From positions 868,001-932,000 of the forward strand of contig NZ_PEFL01000001.1 in the NCBI RefSeq assembly GCF_002754475.1: a DNA stretch of 64,000 nucleotides, read 5' to 3'. This stretch comes from Comamonas sp. 26 (GTDB taxonomy: Bacteria > Pseudomonadota > Gammaproteobacteria > Burkholderiales > Burkholderiaceae_C). A program made the translations under genes and the position numbers. Each line of letters begins with the position of its first letter. The first letter of the stretch is position 1. Shown here piece by piece: positions 45,899 through 61,621 of this stretch. Under the pieces are notes generated by a model. The model made no database searches. It was not told the DNA's origin and saw only the letters and a list, made by a program, of their open reading frames with translations.

Positions 45899-46001
45899 TT
45901 GATTTCTGGAAGTGACGCAATAGTGACCCTTTTGCCAAAAGCTGCACCAAAGCGTCGCTAGAATGACTTTGCCTTGTGGTGAAACCATTCACCGCAAAGC
46001 A

Positions 46002-46170
46002 GCGTTCTCAGGGCGGGGTGTAATTCCCCACCGGCGGTATCTGCAGCCAGACCTATGGTCCGGACTGCAGCAGCCCGCGAGCGCCTTTGGTCTCGTCAGA
46101 GTCCACAGGGTCAGCAGATCTGGTGAGATACCAGAGCCGACGGTCATAGTCCGGATGAAAGAGATCGCGC
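46002..46170 (+). promoter_or_regulatory. FMN riboswitch (RFN element)
   Basis: The conserved segments occur in the expected order: TCTCAGGGCGGGGTG, AATTCCCCACCGGCGGT, the CAGCCCGCGAGCG junction, CAGCAGATCTGGTGAGA and AGAGCCGACGGTCATAGTCC, ending GGATGAAAGAGA. These are diagnostic of the FMN aptamer. It lies about 90 bases upstream of ribH, with an expression platform in between, and should lower expression when FMN is abundant. Confidence 0.95.
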
Positions 46171-57658: not shown

Positions 57659-58039
57659 ATGAAGAAAATTTTTGCCGCGTTGGCATTGATTGCACCGTTG
57701 GCTGTATTTGCCAACTCCAATTGCGACAAGCCAGTCAATGATTTTGATGGCCTGTACTGCCTCAACAAGGTGTACTCGGAAGCCGACAAGGAGTTGAACC
57801 AGCGCTATTCCGAACTGGCCTCCAAGCTCGATGCACCGGGCAAGTCTGCGCTCAAGCAAGGCCAACTGGCCTGGATGAAGCAGCGCAACAATCAGTGCTC
57901 CAAAAGGGATGACACCGGCTTTTATGTAAACCTGCGCTGCGCCACCGAGACCACCATTGCCCGCGTGGACTTTTTGCAAGGCCGTGTACGCGAGTGCAAA
58001 AGTGCGGGCTGCCAAAACAGCAAGCTGCTCGAGCCGTGA
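57659..58039 (+). CDS. LprI-like lysozyme-inhibitor domain protein (DUF1311)
   Basis: This 126-residue secreted protein has a signal peptide (IFAALALIAPLAVFA, cleaved near residue 19) and the LprI domain: YCLNKVYSEADKELNQRYSE, then KQGQLAWMKQRNNQC. It carries seven cysteines after the signal, likely in disulfides. Members are thought to inhibit lysozyme or act in envelope stress. AAGGAG lies six bases upstream of the ATG at 57659. Confidence 0.88.
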   Translation: MKKIFAALALIAPLAVFANSNCDKPVNDFDGLYCLNKVYSEADKELNQRYSELASKLDAPGKSALKQGQLAWMKQRNNQCSKRDDTGFYVNLRCATETTIARVDFLQGRVRECKSAGCQNSKLLEP

Positions 58040-58209
58040 CCTCCTATTAATAGCTTGCAGGCAGGCCCATCAAGCGCCGCCGCTGCCCACCCGCATGACA
58101 AGCGCAAATGCCAGCTGTTGGGTTGGCGTTTGCTGTTGAGCGGCCCTGTTCAGACCTGGGCCTTTGGAAAACCATGCCTCCTTGAAAAGGAGGTTCAGAG
58201 AAGGTGTTT

Positions 58210-58881
58210 ATGTCGTTTAGTCAAAGCCTGTGGAGCGCCAATCAAGCCTTGTACCAGAGCACGCTGGACTTGCCCTTTAACAAGGAACTGGCGGCAGGCA
58301 CGCTCAGCATGGAGCGCTTTCGCCATTACATGATTCAGGATGCGCACTATCTGGTGGCCTACGGCCGTGCGCTGGCCGTGACGGCTGCCAAGTCCGACAA
58401 CGCCGAAGGCGTGGTGCAGTTTGCCAATGCCGCCAATGAAGCCGTGGTGGTGGAGCGTGCCCTGCATGGCGGCTTTATGCGTGACTTTGGTGTCAGCGCT
58501 GAGCAGTTCGCTGCCACGCCGCTCACGCCTGCCTGCCACCACTACACCAGCTTTCTGGTCTCTACCGCCTGGAGCGCGCCATATCCCGTGGCCGTGGCCG
58601 CACTGCTGCCATGCTTCTGGATTTACGCCGAAGTGGGGCGCGACATTCATGCGCGCTCGGCATCTGACAACCCGTATCAGGCTTGGGTCGATACCTATGC
58701 CAGCAAAGAATTCCACGCTGCCGTACGCGGTGTCTGCGCCACGGTGGATCGCCTGGCGGAAGATGCCACGGAATCCACCCGCGCCGCCATGCACGCGGCT
58801 TATCGTGATGCTGCAAGGCTGGAGTGGATGTTCTGGGACAGTGCTTATCAGCTGGCCGACTGGCCCAAGCCGCTGCGTTAA
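58210..58881 (+). CDS. tenA: TenA-family aminopyrimidine aminohydrolase / thiaminase II
   Basis: This 223-residue protein belongs to the TenA family, which hydrolyses aminopyrimidines in thiamin salvage. Motifs include YMIQDAHYLVAYGRAL, FANAANEAVVVERALH and the LLPCFWIYAEVG segment with the active-site cysteine. AAGG precedes the ATG by five bases; an in-frame GTG six bases upstream is less likely. No thiamin genes are adjacent. A terminator-like hairpin follows. Confidence 0.92.
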   Translation: MSFSQSLWSANQALYQSTLDLPFNKELAAGTLSMERFRHYMIQDAHYLVAYGRALAVTAAKSDNAEGVVQFANAANEAVVVERALHGGFMRDFGVSAEQFAATPLTPACHHYTSFLVSTAWSAPYPVAVAALLPCFWIYAEVGRDIHARSASDNPYQAWVDTYASKEFHAAVRGVCATVDRLAEDATESTRAAMHAAYRDAARLEWMFWDSAYQLADWPKPLR

Positions 58882-58908
58882 GCGCTTTTCTGCCTGAAAT
58901 TCAGTCTG

Positions 58909-58949
58909 AAGAGAGGGTTGCTTAAAAAATAAGCAGCATCCTCTTTTTT
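58909..58949 (+). terminator. Terminator of tenA, containing the first array hairpin
   Basis: AAGAGAGGGTTGCTTA pairs imperfectly with TAAGCAGCATCCTCTT and is followed by TTTTT. The inner GCTTA / TAAGC stem is also motif 1 of the repeat array. Confidence 0.7.
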
Positions 58950-59085
58950 GTTGTATGACAAAGAGTTAGCTGGCTTGTTCAGCAGCTTGCTGGAGTTTGT
59001 CCACAAGCTTGTAGCGATTTTTTGGGGAGAACTCGCCTCAAGCCCAAGTCCATAGCGCGCTAGCTGCTATGAATTGCGGAGTTTT
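58920..59085 (+). repeat. Repeat array unit 1 of an unassigned structured repeat
   Basis: Motifs in order: hairpin GCTTAAAAAATAAGC (58920-58934), core TTTGTCCACAAGCTTGTAG (58996-59014), GGGGAGAACT (59024-59033), then AGCCCAAGTC and GCTATGAATTGCGGAGTTT. Start-to-start offsets from the core are 76 (hairpin), 28, 45 and 84. It aligns without gaps to unit 2 over about 165 bases. Confidence 0.8.
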
Positions 59086-59193
59086 TGCCGTAATTCTGGG
59101 TGGTCAGTGGTTGCGCACTGTGGGTGTATTCAAGGCGTTCTCTGGTGTTTTGCCTTCTCTGTGCAGCTGGAGCATTGCCTCAGAGGTGTTTTT

Positions 59194-59359
59194 GATTAAA
59201 AAATAATCAGCTCTTGCTTTGTTGTTTTATGACAAGGACTTAGCTTGCTTATCAAAGGTCTTGGCGGGGTTTGTCCACAAGCTTGTAGTGATTCTGTGGG
59301 GAGAACTGCCCGCCAGCCCATGTCTAGAGTGCGCTGGTTGCTATGAATTGCGTAGTTTG
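59194..59359 (+). repeat. Repeat array unit 2
   Basis: Hairpin GATTAAAAAATAATC (59194-59208), core at 59270-59288, GGGGAGAACT at 59298-59307, AGCCCATGTC at 59315 and GCTATGAATTGCGTAGTTT. All offsets equal those of unit 1. The hairpin keeps pairing through a C-G to A-T exchange. Confidence 0.8.
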
Positions 59360-59388
59360 AGGGCTGGCAGACCTGTATGGAGTGGTTT

Positions 59389-59503
59389 GCTTAAAAATTA
59401 AGCAGCCATGAAGAAGTCATTTGATAACAATGGCTTGAGTCGCTTATCCAGCTACCCCGTGTGCTTTGTCCACAAGCTTGTAGAGGTTTGACGGGGAGAA
59501 CTC
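59389..59503 (+). repeat. Repeat array unit 3 (3' part lost or replaced)
   Basis: Hairpin GCTTAAAAATTAAGC (59389-59403), core TTTGTCCACAAGCTTGTAG (59465-59483) and GGGGAGAACT (59493-59502), again 76 and 28 bases apart. Similarity to the other units stops shortly after, where the 113-bp terminal-repeat element begins. Confidence 0.78.
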
Positions 59504-59522
59504 GTTGTGAGTGCTTAAGAAG

Positions 59523-59635
59523 CGCTAGCACCACCCAGCAAATCGCAGATTTGCGGTTGAGACGAGGCATGAAGCCGCAGGCAGTACAAGCGTACGACAA
59601 GGCGAAATAACGACGTATCAAGGCTGGTGCTAGCG
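59523..59635. repeat. 113-bp element with 11-bp terminal inverted repeats (MITE-like)
   Basis: CGCTAGCACCA at 59523-59533 is the exact reverse complement of TGGTGCTAGCG at 59625-59635. The interior has no open frame and includes a short inner hairpin (AAATCGCAGATTT). No target duplication is obvious. It ends four bases before the stop of a LysR gene. Confidence 0.55.
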
Positions 59636-59638
59636 ACT

Positions 59639-60595
59639 CTAAGTGTGCTTTCCTGCCTCGATCAGGTGATCAATAAGCGCCCTGACCTTGAGAGGTAGAT
59701 GGCGTGATGGTGCATAGACGGCATAGGCGGTGCGGGGAGCGTAGTTGCCGGTAAGGCTCCATTGGGGCAGTACTTGAACCAGTGCACCGCTTTGTAGCGC
59801 GGCGCGGGCGGCAAAGTCGGCGACCAGGCCAATGCCCTGGTGCTGCAGCGCCAGATGAATGATGCCGGTGCTGCTGCCAATATAGATGGGGGTGTGAATG
59901 GCGACTTCCACCGCATCGGTGGCTGCGGGTTTTGTGGCCGCGCCAGGGCCGCGTACCCATTGCAGCTGCTTTTGAAATTCGCCATACCCCAGCGTGATGC
60001 ATTCCACGCCCTGCGATGGGGCTAGATCCGCAGGGTGATCGGGTTGCTTGCGCAGGCCTTGCAGATAGGCGGGTGAGGCCACGGCGATATAGCGCACCGT
60101 ACACAGCTCGCGGGCCACCATATTGGGTGCAAGCTGGTGGGCGCGGGTCAGTCGGATGGCCAGGTCCAGCCCCTGTTGGGCCAGGTCTTGCATCTGATCG
60201 CTAAGGCTGATGGCAATCTCCAGTTCAGGCCACTGGCGTCGTAGAGCGGGTAGCTGGGCAGTCAGCCAGATTTCACCAAACACCGTGGGCGCAGTCAGTC
60301 TCACCGTGCCGCGCGGCACGCCGCTGTAGTGGCCGGCAATGGCGTGGATGTCGCTGGCGGTCTGACTCAGTTGGCTGCAGGCGGCGTAGACCTCGGCGCC
60401 TAGCTCCGTGAGCGACAGCGACCGGGTAGTGCGGTGCAGCAACTGCACGCCCCAGTGCGCCTCCAACCTGCCCACGCTGCGGCTGACGGCCGAGGTGGTC
60501 AGCTCCAGCTGCCTTGCGGCGGCGGCAAAGCTGCGCAGCTCTACCACCTTGGCAAAAACCAGCATTTCGGGAACCAGTCGGGGCTCTTTGCTCAT
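59639..60595 (-). CDS. LysR-family transcriptional regulator
   Basis: This 318-residue regulator has the helix-turn-helix RSFAAAARQLELTTSAVSRS (about residues 21-40) and an effector domain from about 92. It is of the CrgA type (HRTTRSLSLTELG, PRGTVRLTAPTVFGE). It is divergent from an EamA-type exporter gene, its probable target. The stop lies next to the MITE-like element. Confidence 0.92.
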   Translation of the reverse strand: MSKEPRLVPEMLVFAKVVELRSFAAAARQLELTTSAVSRSVGRLEAHWGVQLLHRTTRSLSLTELGAEVYAACSQLSQTASDIHAIAGHYSGVPRGTVRLTAPTVFGEIWLTAQLPALRRQWPELEIAISLSDQMQDLAQQGLDLAIRLTRAHQLAPNMVARELCTVRYIAVASPAYLQGLRKQPDHPADLAPSQGVECITLGYGEFQKQLQWVRGPGAATKPAATDAVEVAIHTPIYIGSSTGIIHLALQHQGIGLVADFAARAALQSGALVQVLPQWSLTGNYAPRTAYAVYAPSRHLPLKVRALIDHLIEAGKHT

Positions 60596-60670
60596 GGATC
60601 AATCCCTTGGCTAATGTTGATTTAAAAACAATAGTAAGTGGAATTGGTACGCATTGATGAATCAGATTCA

Positions 60671-61621
60671 ATGAATAAAGATCAAAGCATGACTCTCAAT
60701 GCTTCTTCCTCATCCCCGGGCGCTGTGCCTGAAGTGCCTCATCCGTCCTTAGCCACCGCTACGCCCGGCGGCGGCACCTGGCGCATGGTGCTGGCCATGG
60801 CCTTGTCCGGCACGATTGGCCTGCTGGTGGTTGAAAGCGAGCTACCCGCACTGTGGGTGGTCTGGCTGCGCTGCATTCTGGGTGGACTGGGGCTGGCGGC
60901 GTGGGTGGCGGTTTCACGCCAGTGGCGAACGCCGACGCGCAGTGAGTTGAGGTGGTTGCTGCTGGGCGGGCTGGCGCTGATCGTCAACTGGCTGTGCCTG
61001 TTTTGCGCTTATCGCTACAGCGGCATTGCAATTGCCACGGTGGTCTATCACGTGCAGCCGTTTTTATTGCTGCTGCTGGCAGCCTTGTTGCAGGGCGAGG
61101 TTTTGCCGCTGCGGCGCATGCCGTGGCTCCTGTTGGCGCTGGTTGGCGTGCTGCTCAGCAGCGGCTTGCTGGGAGCTGATGGTGCTCATCAGGCATCGTG
61201 GCAAGGGATTGGCCTGGCTCTGCTGGCCGCCAGCCTGTATGCCGTGGCCACGTTGAACACCCAGCGTCTCAAGCGCATCGCCCCAGCGCAGATTGCCATG
61301 CTGCAAATGGGAGTCGGGGCTTTGGCTTTGCTGCCGTTTGTGTGGGAGTTGCGTGCCGATGTTGTCTTCAGCCCCAAGGCGTTGGCTGCCGTGCTGGTAC
61401 TGGGGCTGGTGCACACGGCCTGGATGTATACGCTGATGTACACGGCGTTCCAGCGGCTCAAGGCGCAGGCCATTGCAGGCCTGTCTTATATCTACCCCGT
61501 CATGGCCTTGCTGGTGGATTTGCTGTGGTTCGGCGCCAAGCCCCAACCCGCACAGTGGCTGGGCATGGTGCTGATTCTGGGCGCCGTCTGGGCCTACCGG
61601 CGCGGCGATCAAAAAACTTAG
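60671..61621 (+). CDS. EamA/DMT-family transporter
   Basis: This 316-residue, ten-helix permease consists of two EamA repeats. Helix regions such as LIVNWLCLFCAYRYSGIAIA and AIAGLSYIYPVMALLVDLL are typical of the drug/metabolite transporter superfamily. The N-terminal 40 residues are Ser/Pro-rich. An upstream GTG at 60638 and ATG at 60689 are alternatives. Divergent from a LysR gene. Confidence 0.88.
   Translation: MNKDQSMTLNASSSSPGAVPEVPHPSLATATPGGGTWRMVLAMALSGTIGLLVVESELPALWVVWLRCILGGLGLAAWVAVSRQWRTPTRSELRWLLLGGLALIVNWLCLFCAYRYSGIAIATVVYHVQPFLLLLLAALLQGEVLPLRRMPWLLLALVGVLLSSGLLGADGAHQASWQGIGLALLAASLYAVATLNTQRLKRIAPAQIAMLQMGVGALALLPFVWELRADVVFSPKALAAVLVLGLVHTAWMYTLMYTAFQRLKAQAIAGLSYIYPVMALLVDLLWFGAKPQPAQWLGMVLILGAVWAYRRGDQKT

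Follow-up and report, generated by a model that had tools for sequence, protein, structure and literature searches.

The window analyzed here is a 64,000-nucleotide stretch of contig NZ_PEFL01000001.1 (C1) of Comamonas sp. 26. Downstream of tenA, it contains three units, at 58918-59033, 59192-59307, and 59387-59502, that share a rigid 116-bp layout. Within each unit, a candidate Fis site (the "hairpin" of the original prediction) is followed by 21 bp, an IHF-like site, 28 bp, and then DnaA-box positions at 0, +12, and +26 (reversed). In the list below, DnaA boxes are scored over the 8 informative positions of the Escherichia coli consensus TTWTNCACA, and R1 and R2 are the profiles described in later sections. 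The 15-bp Fis consensus, GnnYAnnnnnTRnnC, was taken from PMC4245941, and the binding-site consensus sequences are those printed in the available text of PMC4245941 and PMC8682772.

37415-38149, plus strand: hda, DnaA regulatory inactivator, 21 kb from the array (TIGR03420, 200.2 bits; cutoff, 194.8)
58204-58881, plus strand: tenA (thiaminase II), upstream of the array (TIGR04306, 138.5 bits; cutoff, 130; PF03070)
58911-58950, plus strand: probable tenA intrinsic terminator in unit 1, a stem extended around the Fis palindrome and then a T-run (MFE, -18.7)
58918-59033, plus strand: unit 1, 116 bp (R1, 85.7 bits; R2, 31.4 bits)
58920-58934, no strand: candidate Fis-like site GCTTAAAAAATAAGC of unit 1, fits GnnYAnnnnnTRnnC
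58956-58968, plus strand: candidate IHF-like site TGACAAAGAGTTA of unit 1, 7/9 consensus positions
58997-59005, plus strand: predicted DnaA box TTGTCCACA of unit 1 (DARS box III position), 7/8 to TTWTNCACA
59009-59017, plus strand: degenerate box TTGTAGCGA of unit 1 (DARS box II position), 4/8
59023-59031, minus strand: reversed weak box TTCTCCCCA of unit 1 (DARS box I position), 6/8
59192-59307, plus strand: unit 2, 116 bp (R1, 88.5 bits; R2, 30.6 bits over 59192-59286)
59194-59208, no strand: candidate Fis-like site GATTAAAAAATAATC of unit 2, fits GnnYAnnnnnTRnnC
59230-59242, plus strand: candidate IHF-like site TGACAAGGACTTA of unit 2, 7/9
59271-59279, plus strand: predicted DnaA box TTGTCCACA of unit 2, 7/8
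59283-59291, plus strand: degenerate box TTGTAGTGA of unit 2, 4/8
59297-59305, minus strand: reversed weak box TTCTCCCCA of unit 2, 6/8
59387-59502, plus strand: unit 3, 116 bp (R1, 85.1 bits; R2, 39.0 bits)
59389-59403, no strand: candidate Fis-like site GCTTAAAAATTAAGC of unit 3, fits GnnYAnnnnnTRnnC
59425-59437, plus strand: candidate IHF-like site TAACAATGGCTTG of unit 3, 8/9
59466-59474, plus strand: predicted DnaA box TTGTCCACA of unit 3, 7/8
59478-59486, plus strand: degenerate box TTGTAGAGG of unit 3, 4/8
59492-59500, minus strand: reversed weak box TTCTCCCCG of unit 3, 5/8
59639-60595, minus strand: LysR-type regulator gene, downstream of the array (PF00126, PF03466)

Recomputation of the hairpin, core, and GGGGAGAACT positions reproduced the arrangement originally described. 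The hairpins start at 58920, 59194, and 59389; the core TTTGTCCACAAGCTTGTAG, which is identical in all three units, starts at 58996, 59270, and 59465; and GGGGAGAACT starts at 59024, 59298, and 59493. The start offsets of 76 and 28 are thus constant in every unit, and the pitch from one unit to the next is 274 and then 195. Over 167 nt, unit 1 shares 78% identity with unit 2. When up to 3 mismatches were allowed, the 19-mer core was found 3 times in the 4.7-Mb genome, every time in the array. All 3 exact occurrences of TTRTCCACA in the 64-kb window are inside units, as are 3 of the 4 occurrences there of the Fis 15-mer with an A/T center. Because these sequences concentrate in the units, the repeat array is not due to chance.

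A protein-coding reading was rejected, since the sole plus-strand open reading frame of at least 60 amino acids that overlaps the units is 60 amino acids long; the opposite strand carries one frame of 76 amino acids across the units. A mobile or phage/plasmid repeat was also rejected, since searches of a plasmid collection and a phage collection with the array gave no match. Other features of the window include an FMN riboswitch at 46000-46170 (RF00050, 104.8 bits) and, just after unit 3, an imperfect inverted repeat at 59518-59640 with 19-nt arms that are 84% complementary and 85 nt apart. The stretch 59057-59083, which separates unit 1 from unit 2, may represent a short dispersed repeat, since a second place in another genome (G003, L027) matches it at 93% over 27 bases.

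Conservation of the array in the genus and at other loci

A DNA search detected the array in 13 of 61 genomes (that of the window included), every one in the same genus, where "genus" in all counts is the grouping of the genome collection used. The 28 units from these 13 genomes align without gaps over 116 columns. Eleven genomes have two-unit arrays; the pitch is exactly 195 in 8 of them and 204, 206, and 226 in the other 3. Three-unit arrays are found in the window's genome and in G034, with pitches of 274 or 273 and then 195. The motif AGCTTGT beside the strong DnaA box (58996-59014 and homologues) is invariant in 28/28 tenA-locus units, in which box II has otherwise decayed.

The sequence-only profile R1 combines the 28 tenA-locus units with 12 others, 3 from the same genus (G006 and G022) and 9 from other genera of the family. 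R1 matched 51 of 53 genus genomes, 15 of which had supplied units to it, and all 46 of good quality. In the window's own genome, R1 and R2 located units at three loci (3 + 2 + 1). The second locus, C1:1140520-1140765, has two units (R1) between the ferredoxin/ribBA side and an esterase gene. The third, C1:1432385-1432484, is a single weaker unit (R2, 22.4 bits) upstream of a 3'-5' exonuclease gene and lies on the strand opposite to the arrays; a similar unit is found beside the same kind of gene in G002. In G001, G018, G021, G022, G027, and G029, single R2 units share the strand of the tenA-type array and lie 1.5 to 5 kb away from it.

These loci bear on the idea that the array serves to regulate tenA or the LysR gene through some other DNA-binding factor, its likeness to the E. 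coli DnaA-control elements DARS1 and DARS2 (DARS, DnaA-reactivating sequence) being partly incidental. The invariant AGCTTGT beside the box would fit such a region, as would the tenA-lysR context seen in most of the genus, tenA adjoining the array in 11 of 13 genomes. However, the unit stands beside different genes at the two further loci described above, the array is kept in two genomes (G001 and G009) in which no tenA was found alongside, and related units are spread over the order. This explanation is therefore very unlikely.

The array does not behave as an RNA family

The original prediction took the rigid spacing as a sign of selection on a small RNA or a multi-part protein-binding site. 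Of this proposal, the binding-site half held up, since the motifs correspond to candidate sites for Fis, IHF, and DnaA whose spacing is conserved; the core includes the predicted DnaA box TTGTCCACA, and GGGGAGAACT includes the reversed weak box. The RNA half did not hold up. RNAalifold predicted 0 conserved pairs on the 28 units, where a conserved structure with covariation had been envisaged, and an Rfam scan gave no match to the array at gathering score. The hairpin change from GCTTA/TAAGC to GATTA/TAATC is present in the sequence, but it had been read as compensatory and is expected in any case because the Fis site is dyad symmetric.

A small RNA family or RNA-structured repeat could account for tandem intergenic copies with a hairpin, and the hairpins of first units do fold well. 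The palindrome stems average -18.8 kcal/mol in first units (n = 13) and -8.3 kcal/mol in later units (n = 15), and folding of the unit body relative to shuffles gave mean z values of -1.87 (n = 13) and -0.60 (n = 15), respectively. Most first-unit palindromes extend into strong stems, but that of L016 does not. That the first-unit stems are strong and the later ones are not fits a tenA terminator overlapping the Fis site, which is likely what the first-unit palindrome extends into. Perfect palindromes of 17 bp and 18 bp form the stem in L007 (G013) and L012 (G002), respectively. Promoter-like sites were sought in 58000-60700, and none was found. Given the lack of conserved pairs, the weak folding of later units, the absence of a promoter-like site in that interval or of an Rfam match, and motifs already accounted for as DNA sites, the RNA family was rejected as highly improbable.

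Related units are widespread in Burkholderiales and match E. coli DARS1 and DARS2

Because R1 performed poorly beyond the family, matching 46 of 399 genomes in the order Burkholderiales, a second profile, R2, was built from R1 hits, using 49 units of 14 genomes outside the genus. The 49-unit consensus is TTGTnCACA nnC TTGTCCACA nAAnn TGTGnAnAA. R2 matched 346 of the 399 genomes, and with the 14 training genomes set aside the count is 332 of 385. The full set of matches covers 305 of 346 good-quality genomes and 143 of 158 genera. R2 carries the ascertainment of the R1 hits, which is eased by the 332/385 held-out genomes and by the E. coli match described below. Since this survey scored nine candidates per genome, its copy numbers are minimum values. 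Arrays of six units occur in G620, G650, G679, and G708, and seven units lie within 1.6 kb in G693. In G689 and G745, 14 and 12 R2 matches, respectively, are mostly single and scattered round the chromosome, unlike the compact arrays elsewhere.

In a sample of the class, 272 of 369 genomes were matched, many of the matches covering the core only. A core-pattern scan of an 84,980-species collection returned 62 stretches, all with proteobacterial titles, and R2 matched each of the 25 that were run against it. Named records with R2 matches include Herbaspirillum autotrophicum (6), Delftia acidovorans (3), and Dechloromonas agitata (2).

R2 was also run on 263,704 bases of the 4.64-Mb E. coli genome, comprising DARS1, DARS2, datA, oriC, and five arbitrary 50-kb controls. 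The DARS1 core ranked first (19.2 bits; E = 1.9e-4), followed by the DARS2 core (17.6 bits; E = 5.6e-4), both in register over all three boxes. Below them came a match in a control (12.1 bits) and, within the DARS2 region, another cluster of boxes (11.8 bits). With default filters, datA and oriC were not matched; their scores were 7.4 bits (filters off) and 7.2 bits, respectively.

Box geometry and spacing

Individual sites and the gaps between them were scored in 83 further units, 70 from other genera and 13 from other places in the genus. A scan of box geometry covered 1,200 three-box arrangements, with the IHF site as the only anchor and the E. coli consensus TTWTNCACA as the box. For 70 units outside the genus, the geometry +12 on the same strand and +26 on the opposite strand ranked first of 1,200 with a mean of 17.84, compared with 11.87 for the highest score of any geometry in 100 shuffles; the runner-up (11, 37 reversed) is consistent with an additional box lying 11 bp upstream. 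Among 16 genus units, the same geometry tied for first (17.0) with (13 reversed, 26 reversed). Because the units had been found with R1, whose profile contains the box region, this test is not wholly independent. Read on the other strand, the winning geometry places box I at 0, box II at +14, and box III at +26, which is the layout of DARS1 and DARS2 in MG1655. A review (PMC5742627) states, in its available text, that box spacing is equal in DARS1 and DARS2 and that box I is opposite to boxes II and III.

Individual sites were often better in these 83 units than in the window. The IHF site is perfect (9/9) in 34 of the 83, compared with 7/9 or 8/9 in the window's units, and DnaA boxes are often better as well. 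The window's units score 7/8 at box III, 4/8 at box II, and 5/8 or 6/8 at box I against the E. coli consensus, and many units of other genera have a better box II. A Fis-like site is present in most of the 83 units, those of L152 being without a clear one, and the Fis-IHF gap is 20 or 21 bp in 69. The gap between the IHF site and the core was taken up to the best-scoring box triple in DARS geometry and is hence not independent of that geometry; it is 16 or 17 bp in 51 units and 27 or 28 bp in 25 (76 of 83 together). The difference between the two gap classes is close to one helical turn and likewise close to one box pitch.

Comparison with DARS1, DARS2, datA, and oriC

The array units have the three-box geometry of DARS2, counted from box III as 0, +12, and +26 (reverse), and agree with its start-to-start box spacing of 14 and 12 bp and with a box I opposite to boxes II and III. 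The order of core, IHF site, and Fis site, with the IHF site on the box III side, is also that of DARS2; predicted sites in all three of the window's units place IHF between the core and Fis, with Fis beyond IHF. The DARS2 IHF site IBS1 is on the same strand as the IHF-like site of the units, and both elements lie at noncoding loci. The spacing differs, however. In E. coli DARS2, the core and IBS1 are 58 bp apart (offset, -71) and IBS1 and the Fis site are 41 bp apart (offset, -125), whereas the corresponding gaps are 28 bp and 21 bp in the window and the core-IHF gap is 16 to 17 bp in most other families tested. Box II is degenerate in the window's units, unlike that of DARS2. DARS2 is single in E. 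coli, whereas the units here are in tandem (2 or 3 units; 7 in G693) and at three loci in one genome, and the genes flanking DARS2 and DARS1 differ from those flanking the arrays. DARS1 shares the three-box core, but upstream of its box III it has neither a Fis site of the tested consensus nor an IHF-like site above 6/9.

Like the arrays, datA combines DnaA boxes and IHF at a noncoding locus away from oriC, and the units could in principle form a datA-like or titration locus that binds DnaA with IHF and thereby lowers free or ATP-bound DnaA. Such a site would be expected to have a strong DnaA box in tandem copies, just one of the three boxes is strong in the window's units, and some genomes (G689 and G745) have many dispersed units; IHF serves datA too, according to the available text of PMC5742627. 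However, the same text gives the essential datA boxes as all in one direction, together with a single IHF site, whereas the third box is reversed in the array units, the DARS geometry ranks first, R2 did not match datA under default filters, and most units have a Fis-like site, as does DARS2. We consider titration or a datA-like role unlikely.

Since oriC is also built of DnaA boxes and of IHF and Fis sites, the array might alternatively be a second replication origin, an origin-like element, or a crtS-like site, crtS being a site that triggers another replicon. The box TTGTCCACAAGCTTGT indeed occurs about 420 bp after dnaA in G218, where R1 gives 15.6 bits over the box positions. However, oriC adjoins dnaA, whereas the array is on C1 and the dnaA gene of this genome is on contig C3, with DnaA boxes of its own beside it. 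Arrays at a separate locus recur in single-contig relatives such as G002, and E. coli oriC has the low R2 score given above. An origin or replicon-triggering site is thus hardly credible. Identity of the array with oriC or datA was rejected, as neither the geometry nor the profile scores fit.

Partner proteins and chromosomal position

The window's genome encodes DnaA, a Fis homologue (41% identity), IHF-alpha (ihfA), and Hda, the latter two above cutoff. Weak DnaA-family matches, in frames of 244 to 720 amino acids, were observed 18 to 30 kb from the matching array in eight genus genomes (G001, G002, G018, G020, G021, G022, G027, and G029). With hda 21 kb from the array and these matches near the array in eight genomes, the array and hda, two loci of the DnaA cycle, look linked; Hda was confirmed for the window's copy only.

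Chromosomal position was analyzed in a hand-picked set made up of a selection of single units plus the tandem arrays found in 18 genomes, with the terminus taken as opposite dnaA and seven chromosome sizes rounded. The set contains no elements from the window's genome (G000), where dnaA is on another contig, or from G689, G745, and G811, and it omits several single units present in G043, G249, G620, G646, and G693. Of 27 tandem arrays, 20 lie at 0.237 to 0.382 of the chromosome from dnaA, within a full range of 0.094 to 0.492 (sizes partly rounded). The tenA-linked array is at 0.237 to 0.308 in G002, G018, G020, G027, and G029 and at 0.094 in G021, and the G001 array, beside which tenA was not found, is at 0.492. 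A position midway from oriC to the terminus as proof of DARS2 was abandoned, since positions vary.

All but one of the 27 tandem arrays point with the replication fork, the exception being the second array of G001. Among the listed single units, 8/8 that are far from arrays point against the fork and the 14 others point with it. The count outside the genus is 5/5, and there are few independent direction events, because most are related loci of one genus. From element coordinates and a terminus position that we assume, E. coli DARS1 points against its fork and DARS2 points with it.

DISCUSSION

What was observed directly is the anatomy of the units, their occurrence across Burkholderiales, and the R2 matches to the cores of DARS1 and DARS2 in E. 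coli. Judged by analogy with the E. coli elements, the array is probably a tandem set of DARS2-type DnaA-control elements. Its units appear from their sequence to be DNA sites for DnaA, IHF, and Fis. Since the parts and their order are those of DARS2, the same action can be argued for them, and the direction of effect would be reactivation rather than inactivation or titration. The main reason for doubting reactivation by the window's units is the degenerate box II. Also against the DARS2 reading, DnaA alone does not account for the AGCTTGT next to the strong box, and the IHF-like sites of the window's units have 1 or 2 mismatches.

According to the available text of PMC8682772 and PMC4245941, ADP-DnaA molecules on boxes I and II of the E. 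coli element meet head-to-head and ADP is released, and DARS2 action needs IHF with Fis. By analogy, IHF and Fis would bend and shape the unit, and ADP-DnaA bound head-to-head on the core would release ADP. DnaA would be freed as apo-DnaA and then reload ATP, and ATP-DnaA would be raised for the next initiation at oriC. For the order as a whole, we give roughly even chances to a model in which replication in Burkholderiales is controlled by tandem DARS2-type arrays, often at several loci and mostly oriented with the fork, which would serve as a multicopy, dose-dependent reactivation timer passed stepwise by the fork.

This kind of element is known. Kasho et al. (2014) describe, in the available text, the DARS2 core and Fis as conserved in gammaproteobacteria and call the core gamma specific, and a 2017 review (PMC5742627) that cites Kasho et al. 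refers to DARS2 conservation in "beta- or gamma-proteobacterial species." The tandem, order-wide variant appears to be undescribed in the literature searched, since the titles and abstract openings of papers on DARS and on Burkholderiales DnaA boxes gave no account of such arrays; the DARS literature found there concerns E. coli and its near relatives.

If the arrays act on DnaA, reactivation of ADP-DnaA would be a widespread system in another large order. The differences in copy number, spacing, and box strength that occur in nature would then be usable for testing how IHF and Fis activate DARS, and it could show why the position and dose of DARS matter. The R1 and R2 profiles supply the coordinates for such testing. 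The arrays may help to time chromosome copying in Burkholderiales.
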